NCBI RefSeq assembly: GCF_003628535.1
Contig: NZ_RBCI01000003.1
Coordinates: forward strand, 434,001-498,000
DNA length: 64,000 nucleotides
Origin: Flavisolibacter nicotianae
Lineage (GTDB): Bacteria > Bacteroidota > Bacteroidia > Chitinophagales > Chitinophagaceae
Direction of reading: 5' to 3'
Positions 2,058 to 55,811 of this stretch are shown piece after piece. A program made the translations under genes and the position numbers. Positions within the stretch are counted from its first letter, which is position 1, and the number at the start of each line of letters is the position of its first letter. Below the pieces are notes generated by a model. The model was not told where the DNA came from and did no database searches. It saw only the letters and a list, made by a program, of their open reading frames with translations.

Positions 2058-2112
2058 GTTACCGTTTTGGGTTTACCGTTAGAGCTCTCTTAACGGTAAA
2101 CGGTAATGGTAA
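2058..2112 (+). repeat. Heptad inverted repeat between murD and ftsW
   Basis: The left arm (2058-2081) is built of seven-base units such as GTTACCG and TTTACCG. The right arm (2091-2112) carries the complement in the same phase, for example TTAACGG and TAAACGG. The RNA could fold into an imperfect hairpin around GAGCTC at 2082-2087. There is no T-run, so it is not a classical terminator. It belongs to the heptad family seen at other intergenic sites of this window. Confidence 0.75.
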
Positions 2113-2152
2113 GCTGCAAACGATATTCTGAAAAACCAATCGGGAAGAAACA

Positions 2153-3526
2153 ATGGACCAATCGCAAGACATAAAATTCACGGACCTCGCACAGAATTTC
2201 AAAGGCAAGGCGCTGCTGCAAAAAACCAGTGGCGACAAGGTCATTTGGGCCCTCGTACTGTTGCTGGGGCTTGTTTCCTTGCTGATTGTCTACAGCGCTA
2301 CCGGTTCATTGGCCTACAAAATGTACAAAGGCAATACGGAGGTTTACCTCTTCAAACAAATTGCCTTTATTGCCATCGGCTGTGTCATCATCTATTTTGC
2401 ACACCGGGTGAATTACACCATCTATTCCAAGGTGGCGAAAATTCTTTATCTCCTGTCTGTTCCTTTGCTGCTATATACTTTGTTTTTCGGCGTGAGCATG
2501 AATGAAGGAAGCCGCTGGATCCGCCTGCCGATCATCAACATGACCATGCAGACGTCGGACCTGGCAAAGCTGGCGCTTTTCATGTTCCTGGCACGGTTGC
2601 TAAGCCGGAAACAAAACAAGATCAAAGATTTTAAAAAAGGCTTTTTGCCCGTGATCATGCCGGTGGCCTTTACCTGCATGCTCATTGCGCCGGCCAACTT
2701 GTCGACTGCTTTGCTGCTCGGGGCAAGCTGCATGCTGCTGATGTTCATCGGCCGGGTTAGCATCAAACACATTTTACTGACCATCGGCTGCGCCATGATC
2801 CCGCTTGCCTTCCTTATTATGGCCGCGGTGGTCAAACACAAATCCGGTGGCGCGGACGACGAAGTGGCCGCAACGGCGACTGTCAAAAAACAAAAATCAT
2901 CCCGCCTCACGGCAAGGGTCGGCACCTGGATCGGCCGCGTGGAAAATTTTATCTACGGGTCGAAAGATGCCAACGACGATGATCACTACCAGGTGAACCA
3001 GGCAAAGATTGCCATTGCCCGCGGCGGTATTATGGGCAAAGGGCCCGGCAACGGCGAAGCCCGGAATTTTTTGCCCCAGGCCTACAACGATTACATCTTC
3101 GCGACGCTGATCGAAGAATACGGATTGATCGGTGGTGCGTTTATCATTTTTATTTACCTCGTGTTCCTGTACCGGAGCATACGGCTGTTTAAAAAATGCC
3201 CGTTTGCCTTTGGTGCTTTCCTGGCACTCGGGTTAAGCTTTACGCTGGTGATCCAGGCCATGGCCAACATGGCGGTGAACGTGAATTTGTTCCCGGTAAC
3301 GGGGGTAACGCTGCCGCTGGTGAGCATGGGTGGCAGCAGCTTCCTCTTTACCTGCCTTTCTATCGGTATCATCCTCAGCGTGGCAAGAAACGTGGAGCAA
3401 CTGGAAGGCAAGAAAGCCCAGGAAGCCGCCGAGGCCGACAAGGAGTACGACGAGATCGATGAAGACGGCGAGGACGATGAAGAAGAGGAGTTAGAGGAAA
3501 CAAAAAAACAACCTGCAATCGCATAA
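2153..3526 (+). CDS. ftsW: Lipid II polymerase / cell-division SEDS protein FtsW
   Basis: FtsW is the septal SEDS-family peptidoglycan glycosyltransferase that works with FtsI. The 457-residue protein shows about ten hydrophobic segments. SEDS motifs seen are NEGSRWIRL, the extracytoplasmic region with IARGGIMGKGPGNGEARNFL, YNDYIFATLIEEYGLIGG and FPVTGVTLPLVSMGGSS. Two features lengthen it beyond typical FtsW: a charged insertion around residues 225-285 before IARGG, and a strongly acidic cytoplasmic tail (residues about 430-450, nearly all Asp and Glu). It lies between murD and murG and the next gene starts only 8 nt after its stop codon. Confidence 0.96.
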   Translation: MDQSQDIKFTDLAQNFKGKALLQKTSGDKVIWALVLLLGLVSLLIVYSATGSLAYKMYKGNTEVYLFKQIAFIAIGCVIIYFAHRVNYTIYSKVAKILYLLSVPLLLYTLFFGVSMNEGSRWIRLPIINMTMQTSDLAKLALFMFLARLLSRKQNKIKDFKKGFLPVIMPVAFTCMLIAPANLSTALLLGASCMLLMFIGRVSIKHILLTIGCAMIPLAFLIMAAVVKHKSGGADDEVAATATVKKQKSSRLTARVGTWIGRVENFIYGSKDANDDDHYQVNQAKIAIARGGIMGKGPGNGEARNFLPQAYNDYIFATLIEEYGLIGGAFIIFIYLVFLYRSIRLFKKCPFAFGAFLALGLSFTLVIQAMANMAVNVNLFPVTGVTLPLVSMGGSSFLFTCLSIGIILSVARNVEQLEGKKAQEAAEADKEYDEIDEDGEDDEEEELEETKKQPAIA

Positions 3527-3534
3527 AAAAAGCT

Positions 3535-4632
3535 ATGGCAAAACGGATCATTATTGCAGGTGGCGGAACGGGCGGACATATTTTTCCGGCCATTGCCATT
3601 GCCAATGCCTTAAAAAAAGAAGACCCGTCGATCGGGATTTTGTTTGTGGGGGCAAAGGGAAAGATGGAGATGGAAAAAGTGCCGCAGGCTGGGTATAAAA
3701 TAGAAGGGTTGGACATCGCGGGATTGAACCGCAGTTCTTTGATCAAAAATGTCGGCTTGCCGCTCAAATTGCTGAAAAGCTTTTTGCAGGTGCGCCGTAT
3801 TTTCGGCCGCTTCGCACCGGATGCCGTGATTGGTGTTGGTGGCTATTCTTCGTTTCCTGTTTTGCGTTTTGCACAGGCCCGGGGAATTCCCACGTTCATT
3901 CACGAGAGCAATTCGTTTGCGGGAAAATCAAACCAGTTGCTGGGTAGAAAAGCAACAAAAATTTTCGTGGCGACCGACGGCATGCAGCAATTTTTTCCGG
4001 CGGAAAAACTTGTTGTGACAGGTAACCCTGTGCGGCCGGATATCGTCAATGTTGCCACCGTTGCAAAAGAAGAGGCCTTGCGCTATTTCAGTTTGCAGAC
4101 GGGAAAGAAAACGGTTCTTGCTGTCGGCGGAAGCCTGGGTGCCCGTTCGATCAACGAAGCCGTTGCAGCCGGACTGGATGCAATGAGCGATGCCGGCTTG
4201 CAGGTGATCTGGCAGACCGGCAAAACCGACGCGGCCAGATGGAAAGAAGCGGCAGCAGGCCGAAGCAATGTCTGGGCGAGTGATTTCATCACGCAAATGC
4301 AATATGCGTACGCCGCGGCAGATTTTGTGATTTCGAGAGCAGGGGCAATGGCGATTGCGGAATTGTGCCTGGTGAAAAAGCCGGTGCTCTTTGTACCCTA
4401 CCCGTATGCTGCGGAAGATCACCAAACCGTGAACGCACAGAATTTGGTGCAAAAAAACGCGGCGCTGATGGTGAAGGACAGCGACGCAAAAGAAAAACTG
4501 GTGCCTGCCATCATTGCGCTGGCCCGGGATACGCAAAAGCAAAACGAGTTAACGAAAAATATTTCAGTGCTGGGTGTAACAGACGCGGATATAAAAGTTG
4601 CAGACGAGATTTTAAAAAGTACCGGGAGATAA
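3535..4632 (+). CDS. murG: UDP-N-acetylglucosamine--lipid I GlcNAc transferase
   Basis: MurG adds GlcNAc to lipid I, producing lipid II, on the inner face of the membrane (GT28). The 365-residue length is typical. The glycine-rich N-terminal motif GGGTGGHIFPAIAIA (residues 9-23) binds acceptor. The region GVGGYSSFPVL and the C-terminal donor-binding motif ISRAGAMAIAEL followed by PYPYAAEDHQTVNA are diagnostic. The ATG at 3535 follows ftsW by 8 nt, and murC starts 11 nt after its stop, so the three are almost surely cotranscribed. Confidence 0.98.
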   Translation: MAKRIIIAGGGTGGHIFPAIAIANALKKEDPSIGILFVGAKGKMEMEKVPQAGYKIEGLDIAGLNRSSLIKNVGLPLKLLKSFLQVRRIFGRFAPDAVIGVGGYSSFPVLRFAQARGIPTFIHESNSFAGKSNQLLGRKATKIFVATDGMQQFFPAEKLVVTGNPVRPDIVNVATVAKEEALRYFSLQTGKKTVLAVGGSLGARSINEAVAAGLDAMSDAGLQVIWQTGKTDAARWKEAAAGRSNVWASDFITQMQYAYAAADFVISRAGAMAIAELCLVKKPVLFVPYPYAAEDHQTVNAQNLVQKNAALMVKDSDAKEKLVPAIIALARDTQKQNELTKNISVLGVTDADIKVADEILKSTGR

Positions 4633-4643
4633 CTAACTGCTGC

Positions 4644-6068
4644 ATGAAGGAAACAGTGAACATACAGGAAATTTTGGCCTCTGGCAGAAGTGTCTACTTC
4701 ATTGGCATTGGCGGTATTGGCATGAGCGCCATTGCCCGCTATTTTCTTTCCCTGGGTGTAAAGGTGAGCGGGTACGATAAAACGGAAACGCCGCTGACGA
4801 AACAATTGACAGCCGAAGGCATCGTGATCCACTACACGGAAGATGTAAACCTCGTTCCGAAAGACGCGGGCCTTGTGGTGTACACACCGGCTGTTCCGAA
4901 AGAACATGCGGAATTGGTGTACTACCAATCCAACGGCTATGCTGTGGTGAAGCGCAGCGATGTGCTGGGAGCTATCAGCCGTGATGCGTTCAACATCTGC
5001 ATTGGCGGCACACATGGCAAGACAACGATCACGACCCTGGTGGCACATATCCTGCGTCACAGCGGCTACGGCTGCAATGCTTTCCTGGGTGGCATTTCCG
5101 TGAACTACGGCACCAACTTCTGGAGTAGCAACAACAATGTGTGTGTGATCGAAGCGGATGAATACGACCGGAGCTTTTTGAAATTGAGTCCCAACGTGGC
5201 CGTTATTACGTCCATGGATGCGGATCACCTGGATATTTACGGCGACGAGAAATCATTGCAGGATGCCTTCGTGGCCTTTGGCGCCAAAGTGAAAAGCGGC
5301 GGTCTGCTCATTGGAAAGTTCGGGCTTGGGCGTTTGAAGGAAACCGGCGTGGAGCGGCGGTGGACCTACAGCCTGCAAAACGATGCGGCTGATGTCTCTG
5401 CTTCAAACATCCTCATCGAGGAGGGCGGTTACCGGTTCGACATCCGGTTAAAAGACAGGTTGCTTGCCAACTGTTCCTTGAAAATTGGCGGTATGCACAA
5501 TGTGGAGAACACAGTGGCGGCTGTTGCTGTCGCAGCAGAACTCCGCATCGACGATGAAAAGATCCGGCAGGCCCTGGCTGATTTTAAAGGGGTGAAGCGA
5601 CGCTTTGAGTACGTCATTCCACCGAAAAAAAACAGCGGAAACAACTTTGTGCAGCCTGTTTTGGTCGACGACTATGCGCATCATCCGGAAGAATTACGAG
5701 CTTTGCTCGGTAGCGTGAGGAGTTTGTTCCCGCAAAGGGTTGTGACCGTCGTTTTTCAGCCACATTTATATTCAAGGACCCGCGATTTGGCTGGTGGATT
5801 TGCCGAAGCACTTTCGCTTGCCGACAGGGTGATTCTTTTGCCCATTTACCCGGCAAGAGAACTGCCCATCGAAGGCGTGAGCAGTGAAATGATCCTGGAT
5901 CGAATTGAGCGGGAAGACAAACAGGTTTTGTCCAAAGACGCGTTTCTTGAATGGATGAAAACGCATGCGGAGCAACTGGATAAAGAATTTGGAGAAGTGA
6001 TTGTCATGGCGGGAGCCGGAGATATTGATGCGTTGGTGGAACCGGTGAGAGTGTTATTAGGGTATTGA
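4644..6068 (+). CDS. murC: UDP-N-acetylmuramate--L-alanine ligase
   Basis: MurC starts the peptide stem by attaching L-alanine to UDP-MurNAc. The protein is 474 residues from the ATG at 4644. A longer open frame runs upstream into murG, but the extension overlaps murG by about 270 nt and has no Mur ligase features. Visible motifs are the N-terminal GIGGIGMSAIARYF (21-34), the P-loop GGTHGKTTITTLV (121-133), EADEYDRSFLKL, and YAHHPEELRALL in the C-terminal domain. The stop codon overlaps the ftsQ start by 4 nt (TTGA), which suggests translational coupling. Confidence 0.97.
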   Translation: MKETVNIQEILASGRSVYFIGIGGIGMSAIARYFLSLGVKVSGYDKTETPLTKQLTAEGIVIHYTEDVNLVPKDAGLVVYTPAVPKEHAELVYYQSNGYAVVKRSDVLGAISRDAFNICIGGTHGKTTITTLVAHILRHSGYGCNAFLGGISVNYGTNFWSSNNNVCVIEADEYDRSFLKLSPNVAVITSMDADHLDIYGDEKSLQDAFVAFGAKVKSGGLLIGKFGLGRLKETGVERRWTYSLQNDAADVSASNILIEEGGYRFDIRLKDRLLANCSLKIGGMHNVENTVAAVAVAAELRIDDEKIRQALADFKGVKRRFEYVIPPKKNSGNNFVQPVLVDDYAHHPEELRALLGSVRSLFPQRVVTVVFQPHLYSRTRDLAGGFAEALSLADRVILLPIYPARELPIEGVSSEMILDRIEREDKQVLSKDAFLEWMKTHAEQLDKEFGEVIVMAGAGDIDALVEPVRVLLGY

Positions 6069-7294
6069 GTTATTCGGTTATTGCGTCACTTAAAAAAACG
6101 ATACGTTCAATTAAAGAGGAATTGAGATTTAAAAGACCCATATACAGGTATTTGTTTTACACGGCATGGATCGTCGTGCTTGGTGGGATCGTGACCCTGC
6201 TGGTGGCGGCCAATAGCAAGGCAAAGGCCCGGGCCTGCAAGGGCGTGGTTGTTTCCATCAACAATGGGGGCGACCGTATTTACGTGGAGAAGGAAGACGT
6301 GCTGAAAAACATGCAGAAAACAACCCGCGGCCCGATCGTGAACAAGCATACCGGCGATATCAACCTGGGTTCGCTGGAGCGAAACCTGGAAGCCAATCCC
6401 TGGATCCGCGATGCCGAATTGTATTTCGATACGAAAGATATTTTGCACGTGTCGATCGCGGAAAGAGTCCCGGTGGCAAGGGTCTTTACCACGGCGGGAA
6501 CATCGTTTTACATCGACAGTGCGGGTGCGCAAATGCCATTGCTGGAGTCGTACAGTGCCAAGTTGCCCGTCGTAACCGGATTCCTGGCAGCCAGGCGGCG
6601 GACTGCGGCCGACAGCGCCCTGTTACAGGAAACAAAAGAAGTGGTAAGAACCATCAGTGCCGACCCATTTTGGAATGCACAAATCGGGCAGATCGATATT
6701 ACGCAGGACCGCAAGTTTGAACTGATACCGGTGCTGGGAAGCCACGTGATCAAACTGGGGGCGGGCAGCAATGTCGGCGAAAAACTGGCAAAGCTGATGC
6801 TGTTTTACAGGCAGGTTTTACCCAAAGCCGGCTTTGCCAAATACAGTGCGCTGGACGTGCAGTTCGGCGGGCAGGTGGTTGCTGTCAGGCGAGGCCCGAC
6901 TTCGGTTGTAGACAGCATCCAGTTGCAGAAGAATATCCAGGAATTAATGGAAAAGAAAATGGCCGAACAGGAGCCGGATGAATCCGTTCAACCGGTGAAT
7001 GAACCGGCGCAGGCTGCCAGCGGCGATATTGAAGAACCCCTGGCAGGTGACAGCACCACGACAAAGGCCGTGGTCGTCAGCGAAAAGCCGGTTGCGCCGG
7101 TAAAGGCAGCGCCGGCCGTGAAAACCAATTCCAATCCACGATCCACCCCTGCGAAATCAACCACCAATTTGAAATCCACTCTGCGAAAAACCAACACAAA
7201 ATCCAAACCTGAACAGAAACAAGCGACAACGATAAAACCAGCCGTATCAAGGCCTAAAGCCGTGATGCCAAGGAGAGCGTCGAACCAATATTGA
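6065..7294 (+). CDS. ftsQ: Cell division protein FtsQ (POTRA protein) with long basic tail
   Basis: FtsQ is a single-pass division protein that bridges early and late divisome proteins. The protein has a short basic cytoplasmic segment, one membrane helix (about residues 28-49), then a POTRA-like and beta domain in the periplasm (for example ANPWIRDAELYFD and the region to about residue 295). The start is inferred as TTG at 6065, overlapping the murC stop; no ATG lies near. Residues about 300-409 form an Ala/Pro/Thr/Lys-rich, low-complexity tail that FtsQ proteins usually lack. Assignment rests on this architecture and on the murC-ftsQ-ftsA-ftsZ gene order. Confidence 0.9.
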   Translation: MSYSVIASLKKTIRSIKEELRFKRPIYRYLFYTAWIVVLGGIVTLLVAANSKAKARACKGVVVSINNGGDRIYVEKEDVLKNMQKTTRGPIVNKHTGDINLGSLERNLEANPWIRDAELYFDTKDILHVSIAERVPVARVFTTAGTSFYIDSAGAQMPLLESYSAKLPVVTGFLAARRRTAADSALLQETKEVVRTISADPFWNAQIGQIDITQDRKFELIPVLGSHVIKLGAGSNVGEKLAKLMLFYRQVLPKAGFAKYSALDVQFGGQVVAVRRGPTSVVDSIQLQKNIQELMEKKMAEQEPDESVQPVNEPAQAASGDIEEPLAGDSTTTKAVVVSEKPVAPVKAAPAVKTNSNPRSTPAKSTTNLKSTLRKTNTKSKPEQKQATTIKPAVSRPKAVMPRRASNQY

Positions 7295-7474
7295 CGATAA
7301 CGAGAGAAGGATGCTGTTTGAAAAGAGGCCAGCCGGCAAAGCAAATTCCCGGCAGGCTGAAAGAGGTTACTGAACGCCCAGGTGTGATTGTACGCGTTTT
7401 GCTGTCGGAAGAAGCAAGACAACCCATCACCGATGACGACAGATAGGGAGAAGGCGGTGCAGTAACACAAATCC

Positions 7475-7550
7475 AGGAGAGGAAAGAGTCGTAATGAGAG
7501 AAAGAGGTAGCAATAAATATCTTTTTGTCTCCTTTCCGGCTTTCTCTCTT
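7475..7550 (+). repeat. Heptad inverted repeat in the ftsQ-ftsA gap
   Basis: The 293-nt gap between ftsQ and ftsA holds no gene. Near its end a purine-rich arm (7475-7508, with GGAGAGG and AAAGAGT) faces a pyrimidine-rich arm (7521-7550, with CTCCTTT and TCTCTCT). The arms are imperfectly complementary and step in units of about seven bases, as at the other heptad loci. It lies about 40 nt before the ftsA start and could affect ftsA translation or transcript ends. Confidence 0.6.
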
Positions 7551-7587: not shown

Positions 7588-8964
7588 ATGAACAACGAGC
7601 AACCAATCATTGTGGGGCTTGACATCGGAACCACCAAAATTGCTGTCATTGCCGGACGCAAGAACGAGTTTGGCAAGCTGGAGATTTTGGGTTTCGGCCG
7701 GGCCAACTCCAATGGTGTCAAACACGGCCAGGTACTGAACATCGACGAAACCATCAAGGCGATCCGGCAGGCGCTGGATGCCTGCTACTCTTCGAACCCC
7801 GACCTGGTGATCAACGAGGTGTACGTGGGCATTGCGGGTCATCATATCAAGAGCCTGCAAACCCGTGGCGACATCGTGCGCCAGGAAACCGAGAACGAGA
7901 TTGCACAAAAAGAAATTGACCAACTGATAGCCGACCAATACAAAACCTATATTCCTGCCGGCGACCAGATCATCGACGTGATCCCGCAGGAATTTACGGT
8001 CGATAATTTTCAAAATATCCAGGACCCGATTGGGTACAGCGGTGTAAAGGTGGGCGCCAACTTCCACATCATCACCGGCGACAAGAATGCCATCCGCAAT
8101 ATCAAGCGTTCGGTTGAAAAATCGGAACTGTTTACAAAAGACCTGGTGCTGCAGCCCCTGGCTTCAGCGGCGGCCGTTATGGCGCAGGAAGACCTGGAGG
8201 CCGGCGTAGCCATCGTGGACATCGGCGGCGGTACTACCGACCTGGCGATTTTTTATGAAGGCATCCTCAAGCACACGGCGGTTATCCCGTTTGCCGGGGA
8301 AAACATCACCAACGACATCAAGACCGGTCTCGGGGTGTTAAAAACCCAGGCCGAGCAGATGAAGGTGCAGTTTGGCAGCGCCCTGGCCAACGAGGCCAAG
8401 GCCAACGCCTACATCACCATTCCCGGTTTGCGTGGCATGCCGCCAAAAGAAATCAGCGTGAAGAACCTGGCGCACATCATCCAGGCTCGTATGAGCGAGA
8501 TCCTGGATTTTGTCTCCTACCATTTAAAGCAGGTAGGCCTGGACAACAAAATGCTGAACGGCGGGATCATCCTCACGGGTGGCGGTTCGCAGTTGAAGCA
8601 TTTGATTCAACTAACCGAATACGTTACCGGTTTGAATGCCCGCATTGGCCTGCCCAACGAACATTTGGCTCCCAATCATATTGATGAATTAGCGAAACCA
8701 ACTTATGCCACCTGTCTTGGTTTAATCCTGAAGGGCTACGATGATTTCGAACACAATCGCAAGCAGTTCGAAACATCCTTCCGCAAAGTGGAAGTGCCCG
8801 AAGGATTAAAAGCCGAAGATTTGCAGGAAGAAGAGATGGAAGAAATGGGTTCTGGCATTACTGTTGTTAAGACAGCACCGCGAAAAGGCATCTCTAACTT
8901 CTGGGGAAAGTTCAAGAACAGCTTGATTGACATTTTCAAAGAAGAAGAAGACAGCCAGTTTTAG
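7588..8964 (+). CDS. ftsA: Cell division protein FtsA (actin-like membrane tether of FtsZ)
   Basis: FtsA is an actin-fold ATPase that anchors FtsZ filaments to the membrane. The ATG at 7588 gives 458 residues; an upstream in-frame extension to 7525 shows no conservation with the family start. Motifs are the phosphate-1 region GLDIGTTKIAVIAG (about residues 9-22), the 1C/SHS2 domain around YVGIAGHHIKS, the phosphate-2 motif VDIGGGTTDLAIF, and the adenosine motif GGIILTGGGSQLKHL. The C-terminus ends with an amphipathic-looking segment, NFWGKFKNSLIDIFKEEE, as expected for membrane targeting. It is followed by ftsZ. Confidence 0.97.
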   Translation: MNNEQPIIVGLDIGTTKIAVIAGRKNEFGKLEILGFGRANSNGVKHGQVLNIDETIKAIRQALDACYSSNPDLVINEVYVGIAGHHIKSLQTRGDIVRQETENEIAQKEIDQLIADQYKTYIPAGDQIIDVIPQEFTVDNFQNIQDPIGYSGVKVGANFHIITGDKNAIRNIKRSVEKSELFTKDLVLQPLASAAAVMAQEDLEAGVAIVDIGGGTTDLAIFYEGILKHTAVIPFAGENITNDIKTGLGVLKTQAEQMKVQFGSALANEAKANAYITIPGLRGMPPKEISVKNLAHIIQARMSEILDFVSYHLKQVGLDNKMLNGGIILTGGGSQLKHLIQLTEYVTGLNARIGLPNEHLAPNHIDELAKPTYATCLGLILKGYDDFEHNRKQFETSFRKVEVPEGLKAEDLQEEEMEEMGSGITVVKTAPRKGISNFWGKFKNSLIDIFKEEEDSQF

Positions 8965-9037
8965 AAATGTTGAAGTAGAAATGCTGAATGGTGAATAGGA
9001 GCGATCCTTATTTGAAATTTATCATTTAACATTTCGC
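8965..9037 (+). repeat. Heptad inverted repeat between ftsA and ftsZ
   Basis: The left arm (8965-9000) is divided cleanly into sevens, for example AAATGCT and GAATGGT. The right arm (9005-9037) holds units such as TCATTTA and ACATTTC. The tip of the predicted hairpin is AGGA, a GCGA loop, then TCCT. There is no T-run. The arms lie entirely in the 137-nt gap and end about 65 nt before the ftsZ start. Confidence 0.72.
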
Positions 9038-9101
9038 CATCCATCCATCAAAGACATTAACACCCCGTTGTTGCTGTAGGCAACAACTTAAACCACATTT
9101 T

Positions 9102-17078: not shown

Positions 17079-17180
17079 CAATCAAAAGTCAATCGTCAAA
17101 CGTCAAAAACGAAGAGGTAGAATAGGTGCTGTCGCCTTTTGGGATTTTGACTTTTTACTTTTGACTTCTCTATTTTCGGT
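17079..17180 (+). repeat. Heptad inverted repeat between pckA and pepP
   Basis: The left arm (17079-17126) reads as sevens such as GTCAATC and GTCAAAC. The right arm (17136-17180) carries the complementary theme in the same phase, for example ACTTTTT and ACTTTTG. It lies upstream of both divergent genes, so here it cannot serve as a terminator for either. Confidence 0.72.
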
Positions 17181-18525: not shown

Positions 18526-18565
18526 CCCAATCAACCTGACCCAAATTTTCTAACTTTCGCCTTTC

Positions 18566-20493: not shown

Positions 20494-20575
20494 GAAATAT
20501 GCAATAAGAAAAAGGCAAATCAGGATCATTTGTCCATTGTCCTTTGCCGATTGTCGATTGCTCTCCGCCTATTGC
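20491..20575 (+). repeat. Heptad inverted repeat between rsmI and the FadN-type gene
   Basis: The left arm (20491-20525) contains units such as AATATGC and AAAAGGC. The right arm (20529-20575) is one of the clearest heptad series in the window, with CATTGTC and GATTGTC repeated every seven bases. The arms are imperfectly complementary and start at the rsmI stop codon, so the structure could define the 3' end of the rsmI transcript. Confidence 0.75.
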
Positions 20576-25912: not shown

Positions 25913-25936
25913 TCTAAACCTTACAAACGAATCACG

Positions 25937-34033: not shown

Positions 34034-34272
34034 AAGAGGGAAAAGGTTAAAAAGAGGGAACGAGAAAGTATTCTTAAGAGTCGGTGGCAAACCCCTGTTG
34101 CTGCGTCATCGTTTCTTCTTCGGGTGGACAGACCTCACAGGTTTTCAAAGCCCTTGAAGTCTGTCCAGGTTTACCAGAAAAGAAAATCCTGAACGAACAC
34201 GGGTATGGGAAGCCAGGGTGATAAAATTGACGACTGTCTCTTTTTCTTCCTCCAACCTTTGTCTCTTCGCTC
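34034..34272. repeat. Widely spaced heptad arms between ispH and the GH13 gene
   Basis: A purine-rich arm (34034-34067, with AGAGGGA and AAAGGTT) is matched by a pyrimidine-rich arm (34236-34272, with TCCTCCA and ACCTTTG). The arms are imperfectly complementary and step by about seven, as at the other loci, but here about 170 nt apart with a separate palindrome in between. The flanking genes are divergent, so the pair is not a terminator. Confidence 0.55.
34126..34166. repeat. Palindromic repeat, copy 1
   Basis: The outer arms GGACAGAC (34126-34133) and GTCTGTCC (34159-34166) are perfectly complementary, and the centre has the GGTTTTCAAAGCC core. A second element with the same core and arm layout lies at 38771-38813. 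It sits in the divergent ispH-GH13 gap. Confidence 0.7.
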
Positions 34273-35568: not shown

Positions 35569-36003
35569 ATGCGCTTTCTTTTACCCCTTCTTGTCGTCGC
35601 GGTTTTAATTGCCAGTTGCTTTTTACCCTGGATGACAATTGAATCGAAGGGCATTACCATTACGGGTTTGAACACGGCCGGCACCACGTACGGCAAACCC
35701 GCTTATTTCCATTTTTTGTGGGTAGGCTTCTTCCTCCTGTTTTTGTTCATTAACAAGGTTTGGTCCACTCGTGCAGCGATGGTGTTTGCAGCGTTGAATG
35801 CCGCCTGGGCCTTTCGTAATTTTTTGGTGCTTCCAATGTGCCAGATGGGCGAATGCCCGGTGCGAAGAACGGGTATTTACCTGCTGTTTTTTTCGTCACT
35901 TGCTTTGTTTTTTGCCGGCCTCGTTGGGCCTGCCAAAGAAAACGAAGAAACCGCAGCACAAATGACTGAGAACCGGGAAGAACCCCAAACGCCAAACACC
36001 TAA
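35569..36003 (+). CDS. Small four-helix membrane protein of unknown function
   Basis: The 144-residue protein has four hydrophobic segments (about 1-18, 47-62, 67-83 and 101-121) and a hydrophilic Glu/Gln-rich tail. The N-terminus has a cysteine after a hydrophobic stretch, but no clear lipobox. No motif was recognised, and no function is proposed. It follows the amylase by 40 nt and has its own promoter-like sequence. It converges on the VIT1/CCC1 gene with an 11-nt gap. The end of the gene overlaps a heptad-like stretch. Confidence 0.7.
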   Translation: MRFLLPLLVVAVLIASCFLPWMTIESKGITITGLNTAGTTYGKPAYFHFLWVGFFLLFLFINKVWSTRAAMVFAALNAAWAFRNFLVLPMCQMGECPVRRTGIYLLFFSSLALFFAGLVGPAKENEETAAQMTENREEPQTPNT

Positions 36004-36014
36004 CTCCCAACTTA

Positions 36015-38702: not shown

Positions 38703-38770
38703 GTTCGGCAGGAGGCCTGGGGCTTAATGAAAAGTCCGTAAGGACGAGGGACGTTCAACACTTTTCAATA

Positions 38771-38813
38771 GGCTAAGACCTTCGAGGTTTTCAAAACCCC
38801 GGAGGTCTTAGCC
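38771..38813. repeat. Palindromic repeat, copy 2
   Basis: GGCTAAGACCT (38771-38781) and AGGTCTTAGCC (38803-38813) are perfectly complementary, with the core GGTTTTCAAAACC between them. It shares the core and layout with 34126-34166. It lies between the convergent VOC and queD genes, where it may act as a terminator on both strands, although no T-run is present. Confidence 0.78.
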
Positions 38814-38822
38814 TCTCGCCGA

Positions 38823-39221: not shown

Positions 39222-40040
39222 CTATATAATTTTCACAAAATAATGAGCCGGGAAGGGCAGGTGGAGAGTGACTGTTCGGGGAAAAATACCGTACACCGTG
39301 GAGCCGCTGCCTGTCATCGCTGCATAGCTGGCACCTTGTTCATAGAGCATTTTTTTGATCGCCGGTATTTCAGGGTGTTGCCTGCCGACCGGTGCTTCAA
39401 AATCGTTCACCAGCCTGTCTTTCCATTCTTCCACCGGGCGCCGGATCATGTCCCGAAGAGAGGGGCGGTTGGCGGAAGGACTGACCTGCGAGAAGGCCCA
39501 ACCCGTGTTGACATGGATCCCCGGATTGACAACGGCGAACTGGTAACCGGATAAATCCAGTTCGATGGGTTTCATCACTTCGCCCCGGCCGGTTGCAAAG
39601 CAGGGTGTGTTGTTGATGAAGAAAGGGCAATCGCTTCCCAGTTGCAGGGCGTACTGAATGAGCTGCTCCTTTGCAAGCCCCAGGTTGAACTTCTTGTTGA
39701 GCAGGACGAGGGCAAAGGCACCATCGGCGCTGCCACCACCCAGGCCGGCACCCATCGGGATGGTTTTGTGCAGGTGCATGGCGATAGGTGTCAACTGCGG
39801 AAAATCGTTCTTCAGCAAGTGATAAGCTTTGATGCAAATGTTGTCGGAAATGGTTCCCTCCACCTTCAGTCCGGAGGCAGTAAATGCGAGGTCTGATACG
39901 GGGGACGGGGGGAGAATGATTTCCAGCGCATCCATCAGTGGAAGGGGATAAAAAACAGTTTCCAGGTCATGAAACCCGTCTTCCCGCTTGCGAAGAATGT
40001 GAAGGCCGAGATTGATTTTGCAGTTGGGAAAAAGAATCAA
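39222..40040 (-). CDS. ispE: 4-(cytidine 5'-diphospho)-2-C-methyl-D-erythritol kinase
   Basis: IspE phosphorylates CDP-methylerythritol, the fourth step of the MEP pathway. The 272-residue protein is a GHMP kinase. It begins FPNCKINLGLHILRKREDGFHDLE, has the ATP motif PMGAGLGGGSADGAFAL (about 92-108), DCPFFIN, and a C-terminal GSGSTVYGIF. The start at 40040 is the first ATG before the conserved NCKINLGL. It lies between bfn and queD on the same strand. Along with ispH it shows that this organism uses the MEP route. Confidence 0.97.
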   Translation of the reverse strand: MILFPNCKINLGLHILRKREDGFHDLETVFYPLPLMDALEIILPPSPVSDLAFTASGLKVEGTISDNICIKAYHLLKNDFPQLTPIAMHLHKTIPMGAGLGGGSADGAFALVLLNKKFNLGLAKEQLIQYALQLGSDCPFFINNTPCFATGRGEVMKPIELDLSGYQFAVVNPGIHVNTGWAFSQVSPSANRPSLRDMIRRPVEEWKDRLVNDFEAPVGRQHPEIPAIKKMLYEQGASYAAMTGSGSTVYGIFPRTVTLHLPFPAHYFVKII

Positions 40041-40169
40041 GTTGGGAGTCTGGGGTTTGGTGTTTGGGGTTGATGTGATAAGGTACTATTCGCTCCCGAA
40101 GGAATATTGCTGGTGTTTTGAGACCTGCGCCTGAAGAACTCCAAACTCCGGACTTCAACCCCAAACTCA
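40039..40169. repeat. Heptad arms between bfn and ispE
   Basis: The left arm (40039-40074) steps in sevens such as GTCTGGG and GTTTGGT. The right arm (40135-40169) shows the complementary theme, for example AACTCCA and AACTCCG. About 60 nt lie between the arms. The repeat fills the whole gap between two minus-strand genes. Confidence 0.7.
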
Positions 40170-41969: not shown

Positions 41970-42008
41970 TTAGTTTGGGGTTTGGGGTTTGGAGTTTGGG
42001 GTTGGAGC
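41970..42008. repeat. Heptad array in the etfB-etfA gap
   Basis: Units AGTTTGG and GGTTTGG alternate with exact 7-nt spacing, beginning at the etfA start codon. This array has no complementary arm nearby, unlike most other loci. The theme is close to that at 40039-40074. Confidence 0.75.
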
Positions 42009-44758: not shown

Positions 44759-45395
44759 CCTGCATGTACCAGCGAATGCGCATGTAGCCAGCTTCAATGG
44801 CATTATAATCGACCAGTTTGCCGGCAATGATGATGAACAATAGGCCGTAAATGGCACCCCAGATATGCGCCGAGTGGTTGATGTTGGTGCCGCCTTTCCG
44901 GTCCATCCAGGCCGAGATCAGCAAGTAAAGCGGTGCAAAAATGAATCCGGGGATGGGGATAGGGATAAAGAAAATATAGACTTCCGTTTCCGGGGCCAGC
45001 ATCAGGCCGGCGAAGATCACCGCGCTTACCGCTCCCGAAGCGCCGAGGCTGCGGTAATGGTAATTGTTGCGGTTGCGGGAATACGTCGGCAGCAGCGAAA
45101 TGAGCAATGCCGTTATGTACATCAACAGGTAAATATACCGGCCGGACGTTCCGAAAAGACTCACAAAACCAGCCTCCACTTCCTTGCCAAACAGGTAAAG
45201 TGCCAGCATGTTAAAAATCAGGTGACCATAATCGGCATGAATCAACCCGCAGGTGAAAAAGCGGTAGTACTGGTTGTTACGGGAAACCGCCGGCGGGTAA
45301 AAGATCAGGTCGTCCATGATCTTTTGGTTAGTGAAGCCGCCCAGTGAAACCAGAACAGTAATGATGACAATGATAATGGTAATGGAAAGTGTCAT
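44739..45395 (-). CDS. Rhomboid-family intramembrane serine protease
   Basis: The 218-residue protein has six or seven hydrophobic segments. The catalytic dyad is S120 in LGASGAVSAVIFAG and H177 in SAHIWGAIYG. The family motif GLIHADYGHLIFNMLALYLFG is at residues 50-70. There is no extra domain. Substrates are unknown. The gene overlaps the 3' end of tilS by 20 nt on the opposite strand. Confidence 0.93.
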   Translation of the reverse strand: MTLSITIIIVIITVLVSLGGFTNQKIMDDLIFYPPAVSRNNQYYRFFTCGLIHADYGHLIFNMLALYLFGKEVEAGFVSLFGTSGRYIYLLMYITALLISLLPTYSRNRNNYHYRSLGASGAVSAVIFAGLMLAPETEVYIFFIPIPIPGFIFAPLYLLISAWMDRKGGTNINHSAHIWGAIYGLLFIIIAGKLVDYNAIEAGYMRIRWYMQAKGWTH

Positions 45396-49584: not shown

Positions 49585-50778
49585 ATGCAGGACGCTAATC
49601 ACCATAGCACTTCATCACAAAGCGGGGCTTCGCAGCCCGGCCACTCTCCCCGTGGGGATGCGGGGGGGCTGAAGATCGCAGTGATCAATGGTGATGGGAT
49701 TGGACCAGAAGTCACGGCCCAGGCTATCAAAGTGCTCGACGCCGTTGGTGAGCGGTTTGGCCACAAGTTCCACTACAGCCATGGCCTGATGGGTGCCGAC
49801 GCCATTGACAAAACCGGCAACCCGTTGCCTGATGCCACCCTGGAGCTCTGCGGGCAAAGCGATGCCATTCTTTTCGGCGCCATCGGTCATCCCAAATACG
49901 ACAATGATCCCACGGCGAAGGTTCGTCCCGAACAGGGCCTGTTGAAATTGCGCAAGTCACTTCAGCTCTTTGCCAATATTCGCCCGGTCAATACCTATCC
50001 CAGTCTTCACCACCTTTCGCCACTGAAGCAGGATCGCCTTGAGGACGTGGACTTCGTCATCTACCGCGAATTAACGGGTGGTATCTATTTCGGTAAAAAA
50101 GAATTGAGTGCGGATGGTTCGGAAGCTTCAGACCTGTGTGCTTACAACCGTTCCGAAATCGAACGCATTGCACACCTGGCCTTCCAGGCAGCGCAGCAAA
50201 GGAGAAAAAAATTAACACTGGTCGATAAAGCCAACGTCCTGGAAACCTCCAGGCTGTGGCGCAAAGTGGTGCAGGACGTAGCGCCATCGTATGCGGATGT
50301 TGCGGTTGATTTCCTGTTCGTGGACAACGCGGCCATGCAAATCATCGTGAACCCGAAACAGTTTGACGTGATGCTCACCGAAAATATGTTTGGTGACATT
50401 ATCTCTGATGAAGCCAGTGTGATCAGCGGTTCGCTCGGCATGTTACCATCGGCCTCAGTGGGCACGCATACCGCCATGTTTGAACCCATTCACGGTTCTT
50501 ACCCGCAGGCCGCCGGCAAGGATATCGCCAACCCAGTTGGCTCGATCCTGTCCGCTGCGATGCTGCTCGATTATTTCAATCTCTATGAAGAAGCAACGTC
50601 GGTGCGCAATGCTGTGAAGTGGGCACTCGACTCCAAATTCGTTACCAAAGACATTGACCCGATCAATTATTACTTCACGTCCACGGTGGGGGATTTGATC
50701 AGCGATTATGTTGCCGGACGGGTTCCGAATGATATCAATCAGTTGAACGTTGAACTGCGAAAATCAACGCTGATTTAA
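49585..50778 (+). CDS. leuB: 3-isopropylmalate dehydrogenase with N-terminal extension
   Basis: LeuB oxidises and decarboxylates 3-isopropylmalate with NAD. The core begins at KIAVINGDGIGPEV (about residue 30). Catalytic stretches are EQGLLKLRKSLQLFANIRPV, YRELTGGIYFG and EPIHGSYPQAAGKDIANPVGSILSAAMLL. The protein is 397 residues, about 30-35 longer than usual. The N-terminal extra is low in complexity and includes SPRGDAGG, encoded by a GC-rich hairpin (49645-49670). No ATG, GTG or TTG lies nearer the core, so ATG 49585 is the likely start. Confidence 0.94.
   Translation: MQDANHHSTSSQSGASQPGHSPRGDAGGLKIAVINGDGIGPEVTAQAIKVLDAVGERFGHKFHYSHGLMGADAIDKTGNPLPDATLELCGQSDAILFGAIGHPKYDNDPTAKVRPEQGLLKLRKSLQLFANIRPVNTYPSLHHLSPLKQDRLEDVDFVIYRELTGGIYFGKKELSADGSEASDLCAYNRSEIERIAHLAFQAAQQRRKKLTLVDKANVLETSRLWRKVVQDVAPSYADVAVDFLFVDNAAMQIIVNPKQFDVMLTENMFGDIISDEASVISGSLGMLPSASVGTHTAMFEPIHGSYPQAAGKDIANPVGSILSAAMLLDYFNLYEEATSVRNAVKWALDSKFVTKDIDPINYYFTSTVGDLISDYVAGRVPNDINQLNVELRKSTLI
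49645..49670. repeat. GC-rich repeat inside the leuB N-terminus
   Basis: CTCCCCGTGGGG followed by a run of seven G resembles the intergenic hairpins at 42163-42183 and 43339-43362. Here it is in frame and encodes Ser-Pro-Arg-Gly-Asp-Ala-Gly-Gly, immediately before the conserved core of LeuB. Confidence 0.55.
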
Positions 50779-50857
50779 GGGACGCTGACATTGCTGCTTT
50801 TCTTGCTAACGGTTGCTTGCTTTGAACATATTCGTTCCACGAATTAAAAAGAAACCT

Positions 50858-51751
50858 ATGTACTACAACGAAGACACGATTGTTTATTACAATGGCGAGT
50901 TTGTAAAAGCCACCGAAGCAAAAGGCAACGTTTACGATCAGTCGTTGCATTACGGCTACGCCGTATTTGAAGGAATCCGGTCCTATACCACCCACAACGG
51001 AACAAAAATTTTTAAGGCGAAGGAACACTTCAACCGGATGCAATTCTCCTGTGAAAGTATTGGGATCCCTTACACCTTCAACAACCAGGAACTGATCGAT
51101 ATTTCGTACGAAGTACTGCGGCGCAACAATCTCAGCGACGCGTATATCCGTCCGCTGGTGACCTGCACGCCCAACATGCAGCTCACAAAAGGTAGAGAAG
51201 CGCAGCTTTTGATCTGTGCGTGGGAGTGGGGTGCTTACCTGGGAGAGAAGTTGCTGCGATTGACGACCTCTTCTTACCGCCGCATTACACCGGCCTGCTT
51301 TAAGGTAGAAGCAAAAGTTTCCGGCCACTACATTAATTCCATCATGGCCACGCAGGAAGCTAAAGACAAAGGGTTTGATGAAGCGCTTTTGCTTGATGTA
51401 AATGGCTTTGTCGCCGAAGGCCCCGGTGCCAATATTTTCTTTGAGGTTGACGGCGTGTTGCACACACCGCAACTGGGCAGCATTCTTCCCGGCATTACCC
51501 GCGCCACTGTTTTGGACATCTGCAACGACCTGGGTATCGAGGTTGTTCAGCGGCAAATCAAACCCGAAGAAGTGAAGGGAGCCGACGGTTCGTTCATGTG
51601 CGGTACGGCAGCCGAAGTAATCGGTATTCAATCCCTCGATGACGTTGCCTTTACAAAACCCTGGAGCGAAACCCTGGGCGCACGGATCCAGAAAGCCTAC
51701 AAAAATCTTGTACTGGAAAAAGAATACAACACTGTTTTGAAAGTCGCATGA
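50858..51751 (+). CDS. ilvE: Branched-chain amino acid aminotransferase
   Basis: IlvE performs the last step of leucine, isoleucine and valine synthesis with PLP. The start at 50858 gives 297 residues ([16 protein letters not shown]); upstream residues to 50813 are not conserved. Fold-type IV motifs are [15 protein letters not shown], the PLP lysine in [32 protein letters not shown] and [10 protein letters not shown]. The ATGA at its end is shared with the ilvD start (4-nt overlap), which implies coupling. Confidence 0.96.
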
Positions 51752-53430
51752 GTGAACTGAATAAATATAGCAAGACCCTTACGCAGGATGAAACACAGCC
51801 TGCGGCCCAGGCCATGCTTTACGGCATTGGCCTGACGGATGAAGACCTGGAAAAAGCGCAGGTTGGCATCGCCAGCATGGGCTACGATGGCAACACCTGC
51901 AACATGCACCTGAACGATTTGGCAAAGCTTGTCAAACAAGGCGTGTGGGACAGCGACCTGGTAGGCCTGATCTTTAACACCATTGGTGTAAGCGATGGCA
52001 TGAGCAACGGAACGGATGGCATGCGCTACTCTCTCGTGAGCCGCGACATCATTGCCGACTCGATCGAAGCCGTTTGCGGTGCCCAATACTACGATGGCCT
52101 GATTGCGCTGCCGGGTTGCGATAAAAATATGCCGGGCTCGCTCATCGCCATGGGACGTCTTAACCGGCCTTCCATTATGGTGTACGGCGGAACGATTGCA
52201 CCGGGCCATTACAACGGCCAGGACCTGAATATCGTGTCTGCCTTTGAAGCACTCGGGCAAAAGATTGCCGGCAAGATCACGGAAGAAGATTTCCGTTGCG
52301 TGGTAAAAGCGTCCTGTCCCGGTGCCGGCGCCTGTGGCGGCATGTACACTGCCAACACGATGGCCGCTGCGATTGAAGCCTTGGGCATGAGCCTTCCGTA
52401 TTCGTCTTCCAACCCGGCCATCAGCCCGGAGAAAAAAGAGGAATGCCTGGCCGCCGGAAAAGCGATCCGCAACCTGTTGGAAAAAGACATCAAGCCAAAA
52501 GATATCATGACCCGCAAGGCATTTGAAAATGCCATCACGGTCATCATGGTTTTGGGCGGGTCTACCAACGCGGTGCTGCACCTGATCGCCATGGCGAAAA
52601 GCGTGGATGTTGACCTGACACAGGATGACTTCCAGGCCATCAGCAACCGTGTTCCTGTGTTGGCCGATTTTAAACCGAGCGGCAAATATTTAATGCAGGA
52701 CCTGCACCAGTACGGCGGTGTTCCTATAGTGATGAAATACCTGTTGGAGCAAGGCTTTTTGCACGGCGATTGTTTGACTGTAACCGGTAAAACGGTTGCC
52801 GAAAACCTGGCCGATGTGCCTTCGCTGGATTTTGAAAAACAGCCGATTGTTCAGCCGGTTTCGTCCCCGGTTAAGAAAACAGGTCATCTGCAGATCCTTT
52901 ATGGCAACCTGGCTGAAGGCGGAAGCGTGGCCAAGATCAGCGGCAAAGAAGGCGAACGCTTCGAAGGCCCCGCACGGGTTTTCGATGGCGAGCATGAACT
53001 GATCGCCGGCATCAACTCCGGGAAGATCAAGCCGGGTGACGTGGTGGTGATACGATACGTCGGTCCGAAAGGCGGCCCGGGCATGCCCGAAATGCTGAAG
53101 CCAACGTCTGCCATCATTGGCGCCGGTTTAGGCAAATCCGTTGCGCTGATCACCGACGGTCGTTTCAGTGGCGGTACGCATGGTTTTGTGGTGGGACACA
53201 TCACACCCGAAGCCTACGATGGCGGCACCATTGCCCTGGTGAAAGACAATGACATCATCGAGCTGGATGCCACCAATAACACCATCACCCTGAACGTTCC
53301 GGACGAAGAGATTGCACAGCGCCGGAAGGCCTGGAGACAACCCGAATTAAAAGCAACTAAAGGAATTCTATTTAAATATGCAAGACACGTTAAAACAGCC
53401 GCAGAAGGATGCGTTACTGACGAAGACTGA
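51748..53430 (+). CDS. ilvD: Dihydroxy-acid dehydratase
   Basis: IlvD dehydrates dihydroxy acids to 2-oxo acids, using an iron-sulfur cluster. The 560-residue length is typical. Cluster cysteines are likely C51 (GNTCNMHL), C124 ([10 protein letters not shown]) and C196 ([14 protein letters not shown]). [21 protein letters not shown] is near the C-terminus. The gene overlaps ilvE by 4 nt and ilvB by 53 nt. The end [18 protein letters not shown] is as in the family, so the long overlap comes from the ilvB start. Confidence 0.97.
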
Positions 53431-55117
53431 AAGCATTAGCGGTTCCGAAGCCGTAATGCGTGCCTTTGTTGAAGAAGGAGTGGAGACCATTTTTGGTTAC
53501 CCCGGTGGCGCCATCATGCCGATTTACGATGCGTTGTACGACTACCAGCAAAACCTGGAACACATTCTCGTCCGCCACGAGCAGGGAGCGATCCATGCAG
53601 CACAAGGGTATGCGAGAACGTCGGGTCGTACGGGTGTCGTGTTTGCTACCAGTGGTCCCGGCGCCACGAACCTGGTCACCGGTCTCGCCGATGCGTTGAT
53701 CGACAGTACGCCTTTGGTCTGCATCACCGGCCAGGTGTTTGCGCATTTGCTGGGGACTGATGCCTTCCAGGAAACGGATATCATCAACATCACTACTCCT
53801 TGCACTAAATGGAATTACCAGGTAACGGATGCCAACGAAATTCCGGCTGTTCTAGCAAAAGCGTTTTTCATTGCCAACAGCGGCCGTCCCGGCCCCGTGT
53901 TGATCGATATTACGAAGAATGCGCAGGTGCAAAAATTTGATTATAGCGGCTACGAGAAGTGCAACTTCATTCGCAGCTACCGGCCAAAGCCAATCGTTCG
54001 CAAAGAATATATTGAGCAGGCGGCGCAACTGATCAACGAAGCCAAAAAGCCATTTGTCATCTTTGGACAAGGCGTGATTTTGGGCAAGGCCGAAAAAGAA
54101 TTCAAGGCCTTCATTGAAAAAGCCGGCATACCGACTGCGTGGACCATTATGGGTTTAAGCGCCCTGCCTTCGAATCACCCGCTGAACGTGGGGATGCTGG
54201 GCATGCACGGCAACTATGCGCCCAATGTGCTTACCAACGACTGCGATGTATTGATCGCCGTGGGCATGCGTTTCGATGACCGCGTAACCGGCCGTTTGGA
54301 TAAATACGCACGGCAGGCGAAGGTGATCCACCTTGACATTGACCCGGCTGAAATTGATAAGAATGTAAAAACAACGGTTCCGGTTTGGGGCGATTGCAAG
54401 GAAACGCTTCCCCTGTTAACAGAACTGGTGCAATTCCGCAATCACGCCGCGTGGATTCAACGATTCAAAGAATTGGAGCAGGAAGAAATTGATGCTTGTA
54501 TTTACAAGGAACTGAATCCGACGGGCGATGAACTGACGATGGGCGAAGTCATCAAAGTTCTGAATGAACTGACCAACGGTGAGGCGGTGCTGGTAACCGA
54601 TGTGGGGCAGCACCAGATGGTGACCTGTCGCTATGCAAAGTTTATCCAATCAAAAAGCAATATTACATCGGGTGGCCTGGGAACAATGGGCTTTGCATTA
54701 CCCGCCGCTATCGGTGCCAAGTTTGGTGCACCGGATAGAACTGTGGTGGCTATTATCGGTGACGGTGGTTTCCAGATGACAATCCAGGAACTGGGCACCA
54801 TTATGCAAACCGGCATCAATGTAAAGCTGCTCATCCTGAACAACTCCTTCCTTGGCATGGTACGCCAGTGGCAGGAACTGTTCCATAGCAAGCGCTATTC
54901 CTTTGTTGATATTACCAGCCCCGATTTTGTGCTGGTCGCAAAAGGCTACCGCATCGAAGGACAGCGTGTTGCCGACAGAGCCGGCTTGCGGGATGCCCTG
55001 AAAGCCATGCTGGAGCACGACGGCTCTTACCTGCTCGAAGTGATGGTAGGCAAAGAAAACAACGTGTTCCCGATGGTGGAAGCGGGCACCAGTGTTAGTG
55101 AAATACGTCTTAAATAA
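53378..55117 (+). CDS. ilvB: Acetolactate synthase, large catalytic subunit
   Basis: IlvB uses thiamine diphosphate and FAD to make acetolactate or acetohydroxybutyrate. The 579-residue protein has [33 protein letters not shown] at the start, catalytic Glu in [19 protein letters not shown], and the ThDP-binding motif [15 protein letters not shown]...[11 protein letters not shown]. The start at ATG 53378 overlaps ilvD by 53 nt, but the next in-frame ATG (53456) would remove the conserved SGSEAV region, so 53378 is preferred. The regulatory subunit gene starts 6 nt after its stop. Confidence 0.97.
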
Positions 55118-55123
55118 ACGGCC

Positions 55124-55714
55124 ATGAACAAACAGGAATTTACCATTACGGTATATACGGAAAATCAGATCGGTTTGTTGAATCGTATCGCGATCATTTT
55201 TTCCCGCCGCAAGATCAACATCGAAAGCATGAACAGTTCTCCTTCCGAGATCGACGGCATTCATCGCTTCACGATCGTGATGAACGAAACCGAAGAAGTG
55301 GTGCGCAAACTGGTGCGCCAGATTGAAAAGCAGGTGGATGTTTTGAAAGCGTATTACAATACCGGCGACGAGATCGTGTGGCAGGAACTGGCACTGTACA
55401 AAGTGCCCACCGATGAAATTGCGGAGAAGGTAAAGGTGGAAAGGCTGCTGCGTGAATTTGGCGCAAGGGCCGTCGTGATCCGGAAAGATTATACGGTCTT
55501 TGAAACAACCGGGCACCGGGAGGAAACAGACAAACTGATTAAAGTTTTGGAGCCCTATGGCCTGATCGAATTTGTTCGCAGCGCCAGGGTTGCCATCATC
55601 AAGGAAAGCAATGGCTTCCACGAAAAATTGAAAGAGTTTGAAGAACTCAATCCGTCGGTGGAAGTCGTGGCAAACGAATACCTGAACAAGCAGGAGGAAG
55701 TCTTTGATATGTAG
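55124..55714 (+). CDS. ilvN: Acetolactate synthase, small regulatory subunit
   Basis: IlvN binds valine and controls IlvB. The 196-residue protein has an N-terminal ACT domain: EFTITVYTENQIGLLNRIAIIFSRRKINIESMN, with the family asparagine motif at IGLLNRIA. The second domain with ALYKVPTDE...GARAVVIRKDYTVFETTG matches the long small-subunit type. It lies 6 nt after ilvB, so the two should be produced together. Confidence 0.96.
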   Translation: MNKQEFTITVYTENQIGLLNRIAIIFSRRKINIESMNSSPSEIDGIHRFTIVMNETEEVVRKLVRQIEKQVDVLKAYYNTGDEIVWQELALYKVPTDEIAEKVKVERLLREFGARAVVIRKDYTVFETTGHREETDKLIKVLEPYGLIEFVRSARVAIIKESNGFHEKLKEFEELNPSVEVVANEYLNKQEEVFDM

Positions 55715-55716
55715 CT

Positions 55717-55811
55717 GTCGGAGATCAGCAATCGGCGATCAAAAAACAGATAAATAACACAAATAAACAGGATGCTCTCCTGCTGAAAGCCGACGGCAAA
55801 TAGCGGAGAGC
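55717..55811 (+). repeat. Heptad inverted repeat between ilvN and ilvC
   Basis: The left arm (55718-55745) reads TCGGAGA, TCAGCAA and similar sevens. The right part (55781-55804) reads GCTGAAA, GCCGACG and similar sevens, and is flanked by an exact stem, GCTCTCC (55774-55780) with GGAGAGC (55805-55811). It fills most of the 134-nt gap and could set transcript ratios within the operon. Confidence 0.75.

Follow-up and report, generated by a model that had tools for sequence, protein, structure and literature searches.

Background

Repetitive extragenic palindromic (REP) sequences and bacterial interspersed mosaic elements (BIMEs), with their RAYT transposases, and miniature inverted-repeat transposable elements (MITEs) are short intergenic hairpins whose non-autonomous copies are dispersed by a protein encoded elsewhere. 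They have a conserved core and a transposase. The intergenic hairpins described here, found in a 64,000-nt stretch of the Flavisolibacter nicotianae genome (contig NZ_RBCI01000003.1, positions 434,001 to 498,000; "the window", numbered from its first letter), are built from arrays of degenerate units 7 or 8 nt long. Unlike REP/BIME hairpins and MITEs, they have no conserved palindrome core; the arms share a unit theme only, several themes occur per genome, and the protein encoded in full-size copies, of the S23/four-helix-bundle (4HB) family, is not a known transposase. It is likely that the hairpins are solo copies, lacking the gene, from families of very small mobile elements linked to the 4HB protein.

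The nearest known kind in architecture is the intervening sequence (IVS) of 23S rRNA, in which terminal inverted repeats surround one small S23/4HB gene and whose presence is likewise scattered (PMC4990558; this and the three papers cited below are represented by extracts). Earlier authors have proposed that the IVS is mobile and its reading frame a component of that mobility (PMC4990558). The IVS lies in rRNA helices and is cut out by RNase III (PMC4990558). By contrast, the copies considered here are many, lie between protein genes, have periodic degenerate arms and in many cases lack the gene.

Cyanobacterial heptanucleotide repeats are known as short tandemly repeated repetitive (STRR) sequences. 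In the P6b region of trnL these are, as here, degenerate heptamers of several themes with complementary hairpin arms; the likeness is by description, and the extract describes no association with a protein (PMC3488679). G-rich heptamers, GGGAATC in Xanthomonas and GGGGA(C/T)T in Nostoc PCC 7120, have been read as quadruplex-forming repeats (PMC4692102). They resemble the present arrays in that most comprise four units and many lie within 50 bp of stop codons; X. campestris has 70 inverted pairs. Inverted pairs are few in Nostoc PCC 7120, with none on its plasmids (PMC4692102). X. campestris has a 4HB protein of solved structure, XCC0516 (2gsc). TAACTGA repeats of Beggiatoaceae, Cyanobacteria and Bacteroidetes are also intergenic heptamer arrays that close relatives may lack at the same gene pair; unlike the present arrays they are almost all direct, with one inverted repeat in the genome described, and have been read as regulator sites near start codons (PMC4679880). 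An earlier link between 4HB proteins and such arrays was not found in a literature search of limited reach (few subscription papers and preprints), and absence from print is not claimed.

Many 4HB genes lie between complementary arms

The window belongs to a 6.09-Mb genome, and contig-wide counts refer to its contig C13 (769,295 bases, one of 70 contigs), with genes on contigs called by a simple script and not by annotation. Matches to the 4HB family (TIGR02436) occur in 18 of the 19 genomes searched; the genome of the window has 17, some of them fragments and none on C13. Complementary flanking arms scoring at least 18 were present at 34 of 61 4HB genes from this genome and the 18 relatives searched, against 4 of 104 C13 control genes of similar length run at equal settings (Fisher 2e-14). 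These 34 loci have an S23-family reading frame between terminal inverted repeats, as an IVS does; the solos have no gene. At a score of at least 16 the counts are 43 of 61 and 5 of 104, with 11 of 16 for the 4HB genes of the window's own genome alone, and a slightly smaller flank left the control counts unchanged. Generally, the arms are periodic at 7 or 8 nt, with 6, 9 and 10 also occurring, and usually hold four to five units each, a count possible only for arms with at least about three units. Own-genome copies (L153 and L158; L152, L157 and L159) share homology over the whole unit, arms included, and none beyond it. A search of named genomes with a single 4HB subfamily, covering 80 of 415 relatives, gave arms of at least 18 at 26 of 77 loci among the matches listed, three loci at contig edges having been skipped, and these include a planctomycete and a lentisphaerote record.

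The cassettes sit between protein-coding genes and not in a 23S rRNA helix, with arm ends near stop and start codons. They occur in every orientation relative to their neighbours (++ 17, +- 15, -- 12, -+ 7), 21 of 72 having no called neighbour on one or both sides.

Genes of a second family, GxxExxY (TIGR04256; L118-L147 and L051), also lie between complementary arms, scoring at least 18 at 18 of 35 loci. Their arms are less strictly periodic than 4HB arms, with a looser unit of roughly 9 nt, and these cassettes are possibly a parallel class of element.

Theme and unit length follow the 4HB protein

On a tree of 52 4HB proteins (of 61), 30 of them labelled by period as 18 sevens and 12 eights, the period label requires 4 changes against 9.7 when shuffled, with none of 500 shuffles as low. 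Themes were compared among 41 cassettes after removal of pairs with homologous outer flanks. A theme was shared in 14 of 28 non-orthologous pairs with at least 50% protein identity and in 0-4% of pairs in the other identity classes (Mantel 0/2000). In part, such a link would follow from nothing more than joint travel of arms and gene, and that joint travel is the very point. Proteins of the L148 type from other genera retain GTTCAC or GTTCAA arms at several loci, contig-edge loci being left out, and the theme drifts as identity drops. In a set of 117 genomes from the family, the strongest tie of each of three themes is to its own 4HB type (one-sided Fisher 2.0e-4, 3.6e-4 and 1.7e-5) at an 85-bit protein cut-off picked after the tables were seen; reversed-pattern controls gave no matches in one pattern search and few in two others. 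Among 27 periodic solos of C13, 14 match a cassette of the same genome, and these cassettes outperform sets from other genera (7.0 solos matched on average; 0/1000).

Occupied and empty sites on cyanobacterial plasmids

A plasmid search with one 4HB protein matched 25 records, 19 cyanobacterial and 4 from Riemerella. The cyanobacterial loci comprise 16 of the 19 cyanobacterial records, L349/L355 and L348/L358 each being one site in two strains. Arms of at least 17 were found at 14 of these 16 loci; among 51 control genes, 260-600 bp long and taken from four of the plasmids, 2 had them (Fisher 1.4e-10; an earlier hand list gave 1 of 47). Degenerate intergenic heptamer arrays are thus common to both groups: the genome of the window has periods 7 and 8, and 13 of the 14 armed cyanobacterial loci have period 7 (GGAGTCA, GGGAGTA, GGGAAAA, AGCTAAA and others). 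The earlier note, which drew attention to the arrays from the letters of the window, saw no likeness to cyanobacterial heptanucleotide repeats beyond the unit length; with such arrays flanking 4HB genes on cyanobacterial plasmids, the likeness goes further.

Cassette sites on these plasmids include cas10/cmr3, cas6/cas4 and nrdB/nrdA. Two reciprocal occupied and empty sites were found between near-identical Nostoc plasmids, the flanks being near-identical with and without the unit, and the arm-4HB-arm unit fills exactly the space from one stop codon to the next start codon. At junction A the unit is present in C052 and N6. Plasmid pNsp_c of ATCC 53789 has the empty form of this junction, with 3 nt between the stop and start codons, and another plasmid of ATCC 53789 has the occupied form. 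At junction B, where stop and start overlap as TAATG, ATCC 53789 carries the unit and C052 lacks it. Between cas6 and cas4 lie 5 nt in Stanieria, 23 nt in Nostoc UHCC 0302 and a cassette in both Anabaena 90 and Pseudanabaena galeata; Dolichospermum has a different, non-array hairpin there. In Nostoc N6 a 4HB gene is truncated with its arms still in place.

Three armed 4HB genes (L346, L350 and L351) lie inside CRISPR operons, at cas10/cmr3 and cas6/cas4.

Solo hairpins in the window and on the contig

The solo hairpins of the window are probably gene-less members of these families, because arms flank 4HB genes, the theme tracks the protein, homology ends at the arms, and occupied and empty sites exist. 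Candidate features of the window are as follows; none is assigned a strand.

2056..2115: solo hairpin 3' of murD, arms 2056-2081 and 2091-2115, theme GTTTACC (stem-loop 0/100 and period 7 0/200 shuffles)
8964..9043: ftsA/ftsZ gap, solo hairpin of theme ATGNTGAAT (period 7 0/200, stem-loop 3/100)
17082..17167: solo hairpin between divergent genes, with arms at 17082-17107 (GTCAAAN) and 17145-17167 (TTTTGAC)
20494..20575: solo hairpin past a stop codon, right arm 20530-20560, theme CAATNGNC
35981..36012: extra single heptamer array, AACNCCAAAC / AACCCCAAACGCCAAAC, beyond the earlier list
40045..40168: hairpin with GTTTGGN arms that match those of L152, a 4HB cassette of the own genome (score 31; at most 15 in shuffles)
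41973..42003: lone GTTTGGN arm, matching L152 with score 29; no significant stem-loop
46030..46110: hairpin of the 8-mer GGATATTN type, matching own-genome cassette L151
55717..55811: weak candidate (stem-loop 3/100, period 7 marginal)

The hairpin at 20494..20575 is similar to the arms of cassette L149, the best of the own-genome cassettes (score 18; shuffles at most 16).

The earlier note listed ten gaps as holding heptamer arrays, nine of them with a complementary downstream arm. Each was re-tested against dinucleotide shuffles (200 for period 7, 100 for the stem-loop), and seven are clearly periodic: 2058, 8965, 17079, 20491, 40039, 41970 and 46024 exceed 200 of 200 shuffles, 46024 having period 8 as well (0.01). 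The site at 55717 is marginal (0.065), and no period 7 was detected at 7475 (0.365) or 34034 (0.40). The stem-loop score is reached by 0-3 of 100 shuffles at nine sites; at 41970 one arm stands alone and no complementary downstream arm is present (19 of 100 shuffles).

Two of the checks that the earlier note proposed, run on C13, came out positive. Self-similarity of C13 intergenic segments peaks at lag 7 (31 segments) and lag 8 (18 segments), with shuffles giving 0.0 at both, and again at lags 14 (14 segments; shuffles 0.2) and 16 (11 segments; 0.6), against 0-3 segments at each of lags 9-13. The unit length of the arrays in this genome is 7 or 8. Stem-loops scoring at least 16 occur in 42 of 414 gaps, against 3.8 expected from shuffles, and those scoring at least 18 in 23 gaps, against 0.5 expected. 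Period 7 or 8 was detected in 22 of the 42.

The gaps with these 22 periodic stem-loops are 12 ++, 7 convergent, 2 -- and 1 divergent, against a contig background of 158 ++, 71 convergent, 104 -- and 80 divergent, and the arrays are not equally common in divergent gaps; the earlier note had placed them between codirectional and divergent genes alike. In 19 of the 21 that are not divergent, an arm ends within 20 nt of a stop codon.

Two C13 arrays, at 327427-327483 and 703307-703387, are near-perfect runs of AGTTTGG with about 8 and about 12 units, far more uniform than the others, and look like fresh slippage expansions.

Themes recur and gap content varies

The earlier note took the theme to be private to each locus and expected an ordinary repeat search to miss the family. 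Such a search does split the arrays up, and the themes are nevertheless families that recur across loci and species, following the phylogeny of the small protein encoded in full-size copies. The C13 array list consists of a handful of themes, repeated. GTTTGGN occurs at 40039, 41970 and further loci; GTCAAAA, ATTCAAC and the 8-mers GGATATTG, GTGAAAAT and GTTCACNN are each common to several loci; and the right arm 17145-17167 on its own matches many places in relatives. The arrays are real, and the puzzle moves from coevolving arms to theme-specific, 4HB-linked mobile elements.

The content of a given gap varies among relatives. At the orthologous gap of 17082-17167 several relatives have other arrays, some have no evident array, and one (G001) has a cassette with a GxxExxY gene, L051. 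Hairpin sequences in the ftsA/ftsZ gap differ among the own genome, G003, G006 and G014 (syntenic stretches, by eye). At 2056..2115, G006 and G014 have a related hairpin whose theme has drifted. By contrast, the GTTTGGN hairpin 40045-40168 is kept in both. Two gaps of the window without arrays, again with no strand assigned, are occupied elsewhere:

18526..18565: array-free gap, same in G006; G009, G014 and G016 have arrays with other themes (by eye)
25913..25936: 24-nt array-free gap; GTTGATAA-type arrays there in G003, G006 and G014 (by eye)

At the position of 18526-18565, G003 has a 4HB gene. For the GTTGATAA-type arrays, the pattern GTTGATNN x3 has no match in the own genome. In the ftsA/ftsZ gap of G009 (L078-L079 stretch) a repeat that by eye is unrelated, CATCCTGAGCGGAGCGCAGCGGAGTCGAAGGATG-like, stands in place of the heptamer hairpin.

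The 4HB protein could instead be a nucleic-acid-binding regulator with the arrays as its operators, acting on its own gene through the arms and on other genes through solo hairpins maintained by selection. That the theme tracks the protein lineage and that solos stand at gene ends would fit such a role. Gap content, however, varies between close relatives to the point of absence, whole units are present or absent between near-identical plasmids, and cassettes face their neighbours in every orientation; this regulatory reading is unlikely.

DNA or RNA level

Hairpins acting as RNA should have arm mismatches that lean to G.U on the transcribed strand. On the coding strand of 73 4HB elements, contig-edge loci being left out, the mismatches are 125 of G.U type and 126 of A.C type, and in 20 GxxExxY elements 41 and 44. 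Periodic solos (27) gave 34:27, against 20:7 in 15 non-periodic hairpins. Selection for RNA structure, one of two explanations offered by the earlier note for the matched arms, finds no support in this test of strand asymmetry and was set aside.

The same counts bear on whether the hairpins are terminators or stabilisers of mRNA 3' ends, selected as RNA. Placement directly past stop codons is what such a function would give, and a few hairpins enclose stems with T-runs that resemble intrinsic terminators (C13 gaps starting at 44786, 279509 and 386989; by eye). An intrinsic terminator tolerates G.U on the transcript, and no such lean appears in cassettes or periodic solos, while it does in the non-periodic hairpins; no Rfam match in the window reached the gathering score. 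This function is very improbable as an account of the arrays. The earlier view that they are not simple terminators holds for most of them, with the qualification that some enclose a terminator-like stem.

Templated copying between arms was the other explanation offered. Unit order is in register between the arms in 12 of 55 elements, where no more than 5% of shuffles of the unit order do as well; relative to their own shuffle mean, 34 elements are higher and 21 lower (Wilcoxon p 0.005). As a general rule, in-register coevolution was therefore rejected, and copying is possible for this minority. The co-variation of arms is for the most part explained by a family theme that both carry, as arrays in inverted orientation. 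The absence of a G.U bias, the occurrence of cassettes in all orientations and the register in 12 of 55 elements together favour a process at the level of DNA.

Such a process might be polymerase slippage that expands repeats, followed by hairpin-primed, fold-back synthesis that writes the complementary arm, with 4HB genes as passive passengers. The near-perfect long arrays at C13 327427 and 703307 and the elements with matched unit order speak for it, and slippage of heptamers is an explanation cited in PMC4692102. From it one would expect neither a link to a single protein family, nor themes that track the protein tree, nor arm-gene-arm units that are precisely present or absent, and as a full explanation it is improbable. 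Slippage may act on the arms after insertion.

A probable 4HB-linked mobile element

Starting from the observed unit, its limits and site, its presence and absence, and the association of theme with protein, mobility by way of the 4HB protein could proceed as follows. A full element spans about 0.5 kb and consists of a left arm, built of degenerate units 7 or 8 nt long, a short leader, one S23/4HB gene and an inverted right arm; it resides between one gene's stop codon and the next gene's start codon, in either orientation. Each 4HB lineage has its own theme and unit length, so that families of elements look unrelated to each other. A 4HB oligomer may recognise its own theme in DNA; the solved homologues 2gsc and 2rld have five chains each. 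The 4HB family is presumably related to the Avd protein of diversity-generating retroelements, a relation on which our literature search found nothing. Other enzymes would carry out the DNA steps, copying or inserting the unit. Solos could be mobilised in trans or could be relics that have lost the gene; C13 has the 22 periodic stem-loops noted above (score at least 16) and no 4HB match. Placement between stop and start codons may reflect either survival or site preference.

Several points weigh against mobility by this route. No clean insertion of a solo was mapped and no movement was observed; no target duplication is evident at the Nostoc occupied and empty sites. We know of no catalytic domain for 4HB proteins. 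Arms of score 18 are missing at 27 of the 61 4HB genes and, among the matches listed in the named-genome scan, at 51 of 77. In the 117-genome test, whose pattern matches include the cassette arms themselves, the pairing of theme A with protein B comes close to the proper pairs in strength (4.5e-4), and theme C with protein B reaches 0.009. For C13 solos the own-genome cassettes are not significantly better than relatives' sets (10.6 matched on average, p 0.20), and the own cassettes were given up as the best source of solo themes relative to those of relatives. Between two Xanthomonas species, the context of the G-rich heptamers is 83% conserved, and they are generally unlinked to known mobile elements (PMC4692102). 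Ordinary genes may also have complementary arms of one theme in both adjoining gaps, as three genes on C13 do:

C13 524723-525104: rpsM
C13 387176-387770: OmpH-like gene
C13 32313-32661: IscA-like gene

More tentatively, and with the balance tipping against it, the elements may form a transposase-less mobile class of at least Bacteroidota and Cyanobacteriota. Here the 4HB protein would read a periodic code in the arms and direct its own unit, and gene-less hairpins of the same code, into stop/start junctions, the theme being an address that evolves together with the protein; the rRNA IVS and the heptanucleotide repeats of cyanobacteria, and possibly those of Xanthomonas, would all fall into this one class. 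By description, the conserved context, the lack of a general link to mobile elements and the few inverted pairs in Nostoc argue against a simple merger with the G-rich heptamers (PMC4692102).

If true, separately described repeats (cyanobacterial heptanucleotide repeats, perhaps the G-rich heptamers of Xanthomonas and TAACTGA) would have one explanation, the common, uncharacterised "four helix bundle protein" or "S23 ribosomal protein" family would gain a role, and IVS-type elements would reach from rRNA into intergenic space. Natural pairs of protein lineage and short repeat are available for studies of recognition, and inverted arrays can mimic RNA hairpins without selection on the RNA strand.

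Other features of the window

The window includes what we take to be the mraY-ftsZ cluster, and its genes point to a genome of Bacteroidota. Two short palindromes at 34125-34167 and 38770-38814 have similar halves (AGACCT..AGGTTTT / AAAACC..AGGTCT) and resemble another dispersed palindromic repeat.

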